In this document: piece after piece, positions 51,107 to 56,809 of the stretch
Position numbering within the stretch: the stretch's first letter is position 1
How the letters are laid out: every line of letters begins with the position of its first letter
Origin: Blastococcus sp. CT_GayMR19
GTDB taxonomy: Bacteria > Actinomycetota > Actinomycetes > Mycobacteriales > Geodermatophilaceae
Assembly (NCBI RefSeq): GCF_004570385.1
Contig: NZ_SPQL01000003.1
Span: 62,001-126,000, forward strand
Length of the DNA stretch: 64,000 nt
Direction of reading: 5' to 3'
Program-made: the position numbers and the translations under genes
Notes under the pieces: generated by a model
Told to the model about the DNA's origin: nothing
The model's database searches: none
What the model saw: only the letters and a program-made list of their open reading frames with translations

Positions 51107-51148
51107 GACGTGCTACAGCCAGATGCGCAAGATGTTCGACTAGTGTAG
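51107..51148 (-). promoter_or_regulatory. Putative operator/promoter of the box operon
   Basis: GACGTGCTACAGC (51107-51119) is identical to a 13-base element upstream of the ABC-transporter operon (56749). Within it, CTACA (51113) is mirrored by TGTAG (51144-51148), 26 bases between the arms. On the minus strand the second arm overlaps a -10-like TACACT. This suggests a repressor site covering the promoter. Confidence 0.5.
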
Positions 51149-51214
51149 ATTCGCCGCATCGGCCCGCAGCGCTGTCGTGAGTGCGCGGGTGCGCTTCCAA
51201 CCCGAGGAGCCGGC

Positions 51215-51862
51215 ATGGCCGAGACCGACCTGCGAACCGACCGACTGACCTGGGTGAAGGACGACGACCCACGCTGGGACGCCGACCGGGAGCGGGTGTT
51301 CGCGACCGTGCCCGACGGTGTCTTCCGCGCCGAGTCCCGCACTCCGGGCGAGCGGCTGTCGAGCGACTGGTGGCGGGTCGAGGACGGCGGCCGCGTGGTC
51401 GGCTACGGCTGGCTCGACGACGTCTGGGGCGACGCCGAGATCCTCCTCGCCGTCGAAGAGGGCTCGCGGGGCACCGGAGCGGGCGCCTTCACGCTGGCCC
51501 ACCTGGAGGAGGAGGCGACCGCCCGCGGACTCAACTACGTGGTGAACGTGGTCCGCGACACCCACCCGGACCGTGCCGCGGTCACCGACTGGTTCGTCGC
51601 GCACGGCTTCACCGGTACCGAGGACGGCCGGCTGCGCAAGCGGGTGGGCGACCGGACCCGGGACATCGGCCAGCACCAGGACGGGCGCCCCGGCACCGGC
51701 CGGTACGTGCCCGACGAGGCGCAGCGCGCGGCGTACGACGCCGAGCGCGAGCGGGCTGCGGCCCGACCTCGCCCCGAGTACGAGCAGCCGACCGGCGCGG
51801 ACCTCGGCCCGGGCGCCGAGGAGAGCGGCGGCTACGTCGACCAGGAACAGCACCGCTTCTGA
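51215..51862 (+). CDS. GNAT-family N-acetyltransferase beside the box operon
   Basis: A 215-residue protein. Residues about 10-145 form a GNAT domain (VVGYGWLDDVWGDAEILLAV, then the acetyl-CoA loop EEGSRGTGAGAFTLAHLE, and VTDWFVAHGFTGTEDGRLR). The last 70 residues are charged and disordered-looking. It is divergent from boxC, sharing its promoter region. Acetylation of a pathway protein or of an amino-aromatic compound is conceivable, but the substrate is unknown. ATG at 51215, with AGGAG about six bases upstream. Confidence 0.85.
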   Translation: MAETDLRTDRLTWVKDDDPRWDADRERVFATVPDGVFRAESRTPGERLSSDWWRVEDGGRVVGYGWLDDVWGDAEILLAVEEGSRGTGAGAFTLAHLEEEATARGLNYVVNVVRDTHPDRAAVTDWFVAHGFTGTEDGRLRKRVGDRTRDIGQHQDGRPGTGRYVPDEAQRAAYDAERERAAARPRPEYEQPTGADLGPGAEESGGYVDQEQHRF

Positions 51863-51888
51863 CGTCGCGGTGACATCGCGATGACATG

Positions 51889-51905
51889 GTCGTCCTCCGG
51901 ACGAC
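51889..51905. terminator. Hairpin between GNAT gene and livF
   Basis: GTCGTCC / GGACGAC, a perfect 7-base repeat with a 3-base loop, lies between two convergent genes 26 bases after the GNAT stop. It probably terminates both. Confidence 0.45.
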
Positions 51906-51997
51906 ACCGCGGCCAATGGCCGTCCCCCATCGGGCAGAGCCGCTGCGTCGCGCCTGCGCGGACCCTCCGGGGCCCACTCGGCGTGACCACGGCTGAG

Positions 51998-52699
51998 CTA
52001 GGCGACGCCGAGGAGCCGCTGGGCGACCGAGCTGTCGCTGCGGAACTGAAGCGTGGGGGAGCGGTGCACGACGCGGCCCTTGTCCATGACCGCGATGTCG
52101 TCGGCCACCGCGAACGCCAGGTGCAGGTCCTGCTCGACGACGACGAGCGTGACGCCCTCGGCCTTCATGCCGCCGATGGCCTCGCCGATCAGATCCACGA
52201 CCGCGGGGGCGAGCCCGTCGGAGGGCTCGTCCATGAGGACCAGTCGCGGGTTCGTCAGGAGCGCGCGGGCGATGGCCAGCATCTGCTGCTCGCCGCCCGA
52301 GAGCTGACCGGCGCCGTGCGACCGGCGTTCCCCGAGGCGGGGCAGCAGCTCGAGGACCCGGCCGACGTCCCACGGGCCGCGGCCCCGCCCGCGACGCGCG
52401 GCCAGGTCGAGGTGCTCGGTGACCGTGAGGGGCGCCCAGACCCGGCGTCCCTGCGGCACGAGAGCGACGCCCGCGCGGGCGATCACGTCGGGACGCCGCC
52501 CGGCCAGCTCGACGCCGTCCAGGGTGACCGTGCCCTTGGAGGGGTGCACGAGCCCCATCAGCGTGTTGATCAGCGTGCTCTTGCCGACCCCGTTGCGGCC
52601 GAGCAGCCCGAGCACCTGGCCGGCCGCCAGGTCGAGGTCGACGCCCTGCAGCACGGCGCTGCGCTTGTAGCCCGACTCGAGCCCGCGGACCTCGAGCAT
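51998..52699 (-). CDS. livF: Branched-chain-type ABC transporter ATPase LivF
   Basis: A 233-residue ABC ATPase: Walker A GLLGRNGVGKSTL, signature LSGGEQQML, Walker B RLVLMDEPSDGL and the switch histidine region VVVEQD. LivF types pair with LivG on the inside of a HAAT importer. It is the last gene of a five-gene operon; its ATG overlaps the livG stop by one base (TGATG). Context points to import of benzoate or a related aromatic acid rather than amino acids. Confidence 0.93.
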   Translation of the reverse strand: MLEVRGLESGYKRSAVLQGVDLDLAAGQVLGLLGRNGVGKSTLINTLMGLVHPSKGTVTLDGVELAGRRPDVIARAGVALVPQGRRVWAPLTVTEHLDLAARRGRGRGPWDVGRVLELLPRLGERRSHGAGQLSGGEQQMLAIARALLTNPRLVLMDEPSDGLAPAVVDLIGEAIGGMKAEGVTLVVVEQDLHLAFAVADDIAVMDKGRVVHRSPTLQFRSDSSVAQRLLGVA

Positions 52700-55405: not shown

Positions 55406-55427
55406 TGCGCCGTGCCCCCTCTCCGGC

Positions 55428-55460
55428 TCCCCGCCGTCGCCTGAGCGGCGACGGCGGGGA
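55428..55460 (-). terminator. Intra-operon hairpin between binding-protein gene and livH
   Basis: A perfect 14-base inverted repeat (TCCCCGCCGTCGCC and complement) with a 5-base loop in the gap between the substrate-binding-protein gene and livH. In ABC operons a hairpin here commonly stabilises the first message or stops part of the transcription. Confidence 0.65.
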
Positions 55461-55485
55461 ACGACGATGGATGCAGCACAGGCTG

Positions 55486-56724
55486 TCAGCCCAGCGGCTG
55501 TTCGAACACGCCGAGCTCGCTGACGACGCTGTTGATCAGCGTCCCGCCCTCGTCGGTCACCTCGCGCAGGTACACGGTCTGCTCGGGCGTCTGGCCGTTG
55601 AAGCTCCACGGGCCGCGCGGGCTGTCCTCGATCTCCCCGAGGCCGTCGAGCGCCGCGGACAGTTCGTCACCGGTGAGCCCCTCGGTCTCGGCGAGGGCCT
55701 TGGCCAGGACGTTCGCGCTGTCGTACGTCGTCATGCCGAAGACGGTCGGCAGCTCGTCGTAGGCCTCCTGATAGGCCTGGACGAAGGCCTCGTTCGCCTC
55801 GTTCTCGATCTCGGTGGAGTAGTGCAGCGCCGTCTGGAGCCCCACGGCCGCCTCGCCCTGCGCGTCGAGCACGCTGCCTTCGGTCAGGAAGCCCGAGCCG
55901 TACAGGGGGATGGTGTCCTTGAGCCCGAACTCGGCGTACTGCTGGACGAAGCTGACGGCCTCGCCGCCCGAGTAGAAGACGAACGTCGCCGCGGCGCCGG
56001 AGGACTGGATCGGCGACAGGAAGGGCTGGTAGTCCTGCGTCGTCCCGAACGGCGTCAGCGCCTGCCCGGCGAGCGTTCCGCCGGCCGCCTCGTAGGCCTC
56101 GGTGAAGCCGGCGACGACCTCCTGGCCGGCGGCGTAGTCCGGCGCCATGACGTAGACGGGGCCGACGCCCTCCGACGCGAGGTGCTCACCCATGGCCGCG
56201 GCGATCTGGGCGTTGGTGAACGACGTGCGCCACACGTAGGGCGACGACGCCTCACCGGTGATGGGGCCGGCGCCGGCGTTGGCGACGATGAGCACCTTCT
56301 GCGCCTCGGCGAACTGGTCGGCGGCACCCAGCGCCGTGGCCGAGTTCACGATGCCGACCACGACGTCGACCTGGTCCTCCTGCAGGAGGCGCTGGATCGC
56401 CGGGACGCCCGTGTCGGGCCCCTCGCCCTCGTCGGCGACGACGGTCTCGACCTCGTAGTCGCCCATCATCCCGTCGTTCTGCTCGAGCCAGAGGTCCCAG
56501 CCCTGCTTCATGTCTTCGCCGAGCGGGGTGTAGACACCGGCCTGGGGGATGACCAGCCCGACCTTGATCGTGCCCCCGCCCCCGCCCCCGTCCCCGCCGC
56601 CGCCTCCGTCCCCTCCTTCGTCGCCGCCGAGACTGCCGCCCCCGCAGGCGGCGACGGCGAGGGTGAGGACGCCGGTCCCGAAGGTGGCGAACAGGCGGCG
56701 GCGGAAGGAATCTGGGGACGTCAT
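55486..56724 (-). CDS. Lipoprotein substrate-binding protein of ABC importer (Liv/HAAT type)
   Basis: A 412-residue lipoprotein. The signal ends in a lipobox LAVAAC, with the lipidated cysteine near residue 27, followed by a glycine/aspartate-rich linker. The type I periplasmic-binding fold follows: IKVGLVIPQAGVYTPLGEDM, NSATALGAADQFAEAQK and YVWRTSFTNAQIAAAMGEHL. Members bind amino acids or aromatic acids such as benzoate and 4-hydroxybenzoate. Next to boxC and a shared promoter element, an aromatic acid is the likely ligand. First gene of the transporter operon. Confidence 0.92.
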   Translation of the reverse strand: MTSPDSFRRRLFATFGTGVLTLAVAACGGGSLGGDEGGDGGGGGDGGGGGGTIKVGLVIPQAGVYTPLGEDMKQGWDLWLEQNDGMMGDYEVETVVADEGEGPDTGVPAIQRLLQEDQVDVVVGIVNSATALGAADQFAEAQKVLIVANAGAGPITGEASSPYVWRTSFTNAQIAAAMGEHLASEGVGPVYVMAPDYAAGQEVVAGFTEAYEAAGGTLAGQALTPFGTTQDYQPFLSPIQSSGAAATFVFYSGGEAVSFVQQYAEFGLKDTIPLYGSGFLTEGSVLDAQGEAAVGLQTALHYSTEIENEANEAFVQAYQEAYDELPTVFGMTTYDSANVLAKALAETEGLTGDELSAALDGLGEIEDSPRGPWSFNGQTPEQTVYLREVTDEGGTLINSVVSELGVFEQPLG

Positions 56725-56748
56725 CGCACTCTCCAGCGCTCCGGGCGC

Positions 56749-56809
56749 GACGTGCTACAGCGCACGTCCGTCGAGGCATGAGCCTGTAGCGCTAACCACC
56801 ATGTGTCAA
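56749..56809 (-). promoter_or_regulatory. Promoter and putative operator of the ABC-importer operon
   Basis: GACGTGCTACAGC (56749-56761) repeats exactly the element before boxC. GCTACAG (56754-56760) and CTGTAGC (56784-56790) form a perfect 7-base inverted repeat. On the minus strand a consensus -35 box TTGACA lies at 56809-56804, so the second arm falls near the -10 position. The site lies between the binding-protein gene and the PaaX-type gene. Confidence 0.55.

Follow-up and report, generated by a model that had tools for sequence, protein, structure and literature searches.

Does a single repressor govern both the breakdown and the uptake genes of the benzoyl-coenzyme A (benzoyl-CoA; box) locus of the soil actinobacterium Blastococcus sp. 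CT_GayMR19? The question is raised by a stretch of 64,000 nucleotides (contig NZ_SPQL01000003.1, positions 62,001 to 126,000; hereafter the window), in which the 13-base element GACGTGCTACAGC stands at 51107-51119 and again at 56749-56761, both on the + strand, upstream of boxC and of the substrate-binding protein gene of a neighbouring ATP-binding cassette (ABC) importer. We find that each copy forms one of the two arms in a long inverted repeat, which reads outward as TGCTAC-N27/28-GTAGCA. Since a two-armed site of this PaaX-like kind lies in both promoters, one repressor probably switches both the breakdown operon and the importer operon. Very likely both elements serve as operators for the PaaX-type protein encoded beside the importer, which is predicted to block both promoters until an aryl-CoA accumulates. 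The features are listed in Table 1.

The shared element and its conservation

Across all 42 contigs of the genome (4,574,936 bases), the two copies in the window are the only exact occurrences of GACGTGCTACAGC, and copies with one mismatch number 12 compared to 67 matches of the reversed control pattern. A preliminary description of this DNA had already reported the same 13 bases on the same strand before both genes, and we confirm both positions. All 13 bases are indeed identical within the window, but only an 11-base core, GACGTGCTACA, is conserved across relatives; the last two bases are not, and the trailing GC is shared by chance. The inverted CTACA...TGTAG pairs that it had described were also recovered, with gaps of 26 bases at boxC and 25 at the importer, and CTACA-N25/26-TGTAG occurs at two places in the genome, which are these two sites. 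In the window the second arms deviate from GTAGCA at their outermost letters (GTAGAT at boxC, GTAGCG at the importer). A position weight matrix built from 34 sites of relatives, excluding the window's own two, gave these two 35.6 and 34.9 bits, with 9.5 bits for the top unrelated position in the window.

The preliminary description had named two outcomes that would speak against a shared operator, namely many copies at unrelated places in the genome and a lack of conservation in related clusters. The genome holds no further exact copies, and the motif comparison gave the opposite of the second outcome. The PaaX protein, used as query, matched 32 named loci, of which 22 (L047-L068) belong to Blastococcus, Geodermatophilus, Modestobacter and Klenkia; closest among the named clusters is that of Blastococcus mobilis, from the window's genus, with 90% PaaX identity. 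In these 22 Geodermatophilaceae loci, CTACA-N26-TGTAG precedes boxC in 17 of the 17 that hold the boxC start, and CTACA-N25/26-TGTAG precedes the importer in 14 of the 14 that hold the binding-protein gene. The site is not on the fetched piece in two loci (L067 and L068), and boxC is on neither piece. Counted between six-base arms, the gap is 28 in all 20 boxC sites, and 27 (12 sites) or 28 (6 sites) in the 18 importer sites.

Scanning 112 genomes of the family with ACGTGCTACA-N23-28-TGTAG gave 42 matches in 22 genomes, against two control matches. Forty of the 42 lie before boxC (23) or before the importer next to paaX (17), and each of the remaining two lies in the intergenic region from which a 3-hydroxyacyl-CoA dehydrogenase gene and an amidohydrolase gene diverge. 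A stricter pattern, applied to 397 genomes of the order, found eight matches, all in box or importer promoters of Geodermatophilaceae, and five control matches elsewhere.

The site also tracks the regulator. Taking at least 75% identity to define an orthologue, 25 of the 112 family genomes (the window's own included) carry one, and the site is present in 22 of these 25 compared to none of the 87 others (Fisher's test, 2e-20, with shared ancestry ignored). Three genomes have the orthologue without the match: in G352 (L027) the arm pair is present and its flank is changed, in G433 (L068) the contig seems to break off part-way through the GNAT gene, and G164 has no BoxC match among those listed at E <= 1e-80.

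When 19 boxC promoters were aligned on their arms, mean column identity was 52% in the spacer and 50% in the upstream 50 bases (near background), and 97% in the outer CACGTC, which had not been used in picking the sites; the arms themselves are 100% identical, in a set that was picked by exact arms. Comparing the two sites of one genome, in 12 genomes that have both, the core agrees at 10-11 of 11 bases and the flanks at 3-7 of 20.

The candidate regulator and the spacing of the arms

The gene divergent from the importer operon encodes a protein with the Pfam domains PaaX, PaaX_M and PaaX_C (62.0, 60.1 and 69.4 bits, each exceeding its cut-off). By sequence, its nearest solved structure is chain 8a39 (E 2.8e-28), which bears the name of the phenylacetic acid degradation repressor. 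By its profile scores the protein is a member of the PaaX family, not classed as PaaX itself. We regard it as the best candidate regulator, as it co-occurs with the site and as the gap between the arms matches that reported for Escherichia coli PaaX, the regulator of the phenylacetate catabolon. A 2022 review gives that site as TGATTC(N27)GAATCA (PMC9493321), and in our own reading of the K-12 sequence TGATTC-N27-GAATCG stands before paaA and TGTTTC-N28-GAATCA before paaZ. The window's sites share this geometry, two inverted six-base arms 27 (importer) or 28 (boxC) bases apart, and the consensus arms share the letters TGnTnC...GnAnCA. The arm TGATTC itself is replaced by TGCTAC in the window and by T(G/T)CTAC at the majority of distant sites.

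We looked for the same spacing in 29 distant promoter regions (17 of boxC and 12 of paaX; 33 before removal of duplicates) from clusters with a PaaX of about 40-57% identity, taking (T/G)CTAC as the anchor and seeking the partner GTAG(C/A) at each gap from 10 to 44. An exact partner arm was found at gap 27 in seven regions, at gap 28 in one and at other gaps in none. With up to one mismatch, the partner is present at gap 27 in 16 regions (13 of 17 boxC, 3 of 12 paaX), compared to 0-5 at other gaps. In Planotetraspora (L071) the boxC-paaX intergenic region holds two long-gap sites, one of them a perfect TTCTAC-N27-GTAGAA.

Several results weigh against this assignment. In thirteen of the 29 distant regions the partner is missing at gap 27 also when one mismatch is allowed; nine of these lie upstream of paaX and four upstream of boxC, one of the latter (L153) having a gap of 28. 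A sequence-blind scan for inverted repeats gave no peak at gap 27 in 18 distant boxC regions, and no excess at that gap in 60 promoters of PaaX paralogues (rows 18 to 77 of 92 match rows). Genome-wide, the short arm pattern CTACA/TGTAG does not outnumber its reversed control (two forward, two reverse), so that it is location, flank and conservation that go beyond chance and not the count of the short pattern. The regulator itself scores 165.1 bits against the NCBIfam PaaX equivalog TIGR02277, below the cut-off of 264.55. The genome has at least one further PaaX paralogue, 38% identical, at C33:127238-128029 (L114), just beyond the window's right end and about 7.5 kb past the regulator, and it may carry other regulators nearby. 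Finally, the test of co-occurrence treats genomes of shared ancestry as if they were independent.

In the same 60 paralogue promoters, gap 26 reached at least 12 bits in eight loci compared to 0-4 at the other 31 gaps, which we do not count as significant. Two of these promoters (L197 and L205) have AT-rich arms at gap 26, TTATGC/GCATAA and TTAGGC/GCCTAA, perhaps a related operator, again not significant.

Predicted promoter placement and alternative explanations

The −35 and −10 elements were assigned from the sequence and its conservation. At boxC the pattern TTGC(G/A)(C/T)-17-CAnn(A/G)T is kept in 19 of 20 sites, the remaining one having AACGAT, and the two arms bracket the predicted −35, one lying upstream of it and the other in the spacer. 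TACACT, at the arm at 51144, was considered as the boxC −10 and dropped because the bases past CTACA differ between species, with TTGC...17...CAnnAT being kept. At the importer, CTACA begins 20 bases (nine sites) or 21 bases (nine sites) past the first T of TTGACA and the arm continues as CTACAnnnT; by eye, a −10 of the form CAnnnT stands at a spacer of 17 in half of the sites and of 18 in the other half. Here one arm overlaps the predicted −10 and the other would lie in the leader of the messenger RNA (mRNA). The earlier view that the second arm falls near a −10 describes the importer promoter and not the boxC promoter as predicted here. In distant clusters TTGAC lies 6 bases past CTAC in 10 cases, and judged by eye the second arm falls close to the −10. 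The occurrence of one operator in at least three promoter registers fits a steric block of the polymerase more than activation from a fixed distance.

We suggest that a PaaX-type dimer would bind the arms TGCTAC and GTAGCA across 27-28 bases, about three helical turns, that the bound dimer would block RNA polymerase at the boxC and importer promoters, and that it would be released when an aryl-CoA accumulates, most likely benzoyl-CoA formed by the clustered ligase. The earlier proposal of one repressor for uptake and degradation is thus well supported in silico by the conservation of the sites, by their co-occurrence with the regulator and by the 27-base gap.

Could the arms instead be bound by a different regulator, such as the PaaX paralogue that lies beyond the window, with the neighbouring PaaX controlling something else? 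The proximity of that paralogue would allow it. In five Geodermatophilus loci, arm pairs with changed flanks also precede genes of ligase-like or amidohydrolase type, and in four of these loci (L048, L061, L062 and L063) the fetched piece carries a PaaX paralogue as well. We nevertheless consider this unlikely, as the site follows this one orthologue group (22/25 vs 0/87), and 32 of the 87 orthologue-free genomes have some other PaaX-family match (E <= 1e-30) and the site in none. A little less likely again is a compact dimer that uses two short independent sites, dyads of GACGTGC...GCACGTC, instead of one long operator. The importer sites invite this idea, since GCACGTC follows the arm after 2-3 bases in exact form in 12 of 18 and as a close variant in another five (it was not found in one). 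It is absent, however, from all 20 boxC sites, the far arm is kept at a gap of 27-28, and in distant clusters the long gap occurs where the GACGTG flank is missing.

Most of the importer site lies downstream of the predicted −10, as would suit an element acting in the mRNA leader through RNA structure or attenuation. The boxC site lies upstream of its predicted −10, where it would escape transcription, and the spacer is unconserved, making a role in the leader very improbable. Chance, or the common descent of short intergenic stretches, deserves hardly any weight. The relatives are close and the short arm pattern does not exceed its control, but the flanks diverge where the core does not, whether species or the paired sites within a genome are compared, and the gap is fixed in distant clusters, which already contradicts that explanation. 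The long operator bound by the neighbouring PaaX-type protein thus stays our preferred reading. Its wider form is tentative, and we think it somewhat doubtful: the box-linked branch of PaaX might hold an Actinomycetes-wide regulon in which the 27-28 gap has persisted since this branch and E. coli PaaX diverged and the letters and promoter position are free to change, and GCACGTC at the importer might add a contact through which uptake responds differently from degradation.

Neighbouring genes, possible further targets and known systems

Table 1. Putative operators, predicted promoter elements and genes of the locus (window positions)
Feature	Position	Strand	Remarks
boxC operator, conserved arm GACGTGCTACA	51107..51117	+	half-site TGCTAC 51111-51116; inside predicted −35/−10 spacer, touching −10
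boxC operator, opposite arm TGTAG (gene sense CTACA)	51144..51148	+	upstream of predicted −35; six-base-arm gap 28
boxC predicted −35, TTGCGC	51125..51130	-	TTGC in 20/20 sites examined
boxC predicted −10, CAGGAT	51102..51107	-	17 bases from −35
Importer operator, conserved arm GACGTGCTACA	56749..56759	+	half-site TGCTAC 56753-56758; in predicted importer mRNA leader
Importer operator, opposite arm TGTAG	56785..56789	+	overlaps predicted −10; six-base-arm gap 27
GCACGTC, inverted copy of GACGTGC beside importer arm	56762..56768	+	2-3 bases past arm
Importer predicted −35, TTGACA	56804..56809	-	18/18 sites examined
Importer predicted −10, CAGGCT	56781..56786	-	
PaaX-family regulator	56926..57768	+	start codon uncertain; divergent from importer operon
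3-hydroxyacyl-CoA dehydrogenase	42718..43545	-	start uncertain; same-strand row downstream of boxC
Luciferase-like F420/FMN monooxygenase	43584-44723	-	TIGR03619 above cut-off; row downstream of box genes
Benzoate-CoA ligase family	46062..47747	-	TIGR02262 501.3 bits, cut-off 375.25
boxB, benzoyl-CoA 2,3-epoxidase	47829..49307	-	TIGR03225 768.2 bits, cut-off 499.1
boxC, 2,3-epoxybenzoyl-CoA dihydrolase	49313..51049	-	predicted GTG start 51049; TIGR03222 883.9 bits, cut-off 712.3
GNAT acetyltransferase gene	51215..51862	+	divergent from boxC across operator
Importer's two permeases and two ATPases	51998..55609	-	
ABC importer substrate-binding protein	55486..56724	-	Peripla_BP_6

With BoxB, BoxC and the benzoate-CoA ligase all above their cut-offs, the genes make up an aerobic box pathway cluster, and the importer (binding protein, two permeases, two ATPases) is of the branched-chain amino acid type. 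Near the PaaX gene, at 58388-60760 on the - strand, lies a gene for a bifunctional salicylyl-CoA 5-hydroxylase/oxidoreductase (NF006101, 1236 bits, cut-off 1078), by its profile score a second aryl-CoA pathway beside box. In three relatives (L057, L058 and L059) the GNAT gene is followed on its own strand by paaX at a distance of about 100-240 bases, and the operator could therefore also autoregulate paaX there.

Some relatives show what may be extra operator targets, bound by the window-type PaaX or by its paralogue. In G300 and G431 a dehydrogenase homologue is set apart and divergent from an amidohydrolase gene, with a GACGTGCTACA site of its own in between. In Geodermatophilus, CTACA-N25/26-TGTAG with an internal TTGAC stands before the amidohydrolase gene in L052, L061, L062 and L063, and the arm pair stands before a ligase-like gene in L048; no such site is present at the corresponding place in the window's own genome. 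Loose matches to the arm pair away from boxC and the importer were found in these five and in L065 among the 22 family loci, and outside them in L024 (position 774), L029 (776, the same place as L052) and L046. By eye, the predicted amidohydrolase −10 is very close to the GTG start in L061, L062 and L063, and the mRNA may therefore be leaderless.

Benzoyl-CoA pathways in proteobacterial benzoate clusters are regulated by BoxR and BzdR, which would share this role with the window's candidate regulator and belong to a different protein family. PaaX of Pseudomonas sp. Y2 reportedly coordinates the upper and lower styrene pathways; it resembles the arrangement proposed here in that one PaaX serves two pathway parts, and differs in its phenylacetyl-CoA and styrene context and its proteobacterial host. 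Closer in lineage is MeqR2 of Arthrobacter Rue61a, said to be a PaaX-type repressor of quinaldine and anthranilate genes and, as the window's protein would be, an actinobacterial PaaX-type regulator of an aryl-CoA pathway. The genome paper of that strain names two PaaX-related regulators as involved in quinaldine degradation (PMC3534580). From E. coli PaaX the present system differs not only in its arms and its equivalog score but also in its probable targets, benzoyl-CoA degradation and an ABC importer. Among the papers listed by a literature search of limited journal coverage, none was recognisable as treating the control of box genes by a PaaX-type protein in Actinomycetes, which is weak evidence of absence. 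The proposed mechanism would belong to the known PaaX-type aryl-CoA repressor systems, with box plus importer as a clear new example.

According to the 2022 review, PaaX bound to its operator still lacked a solved structure at that time (PMC9493321), and the many natural long-gap variants collected here offer material for studying the way in which a PaaX dimer reaches across three helical turns. For Geodermatophilaceae and other actinobacteria, the locus gives a candidate operator and a candidate regulator of benzoate use, and suggests that uptake and degradation may be placed under one switch.

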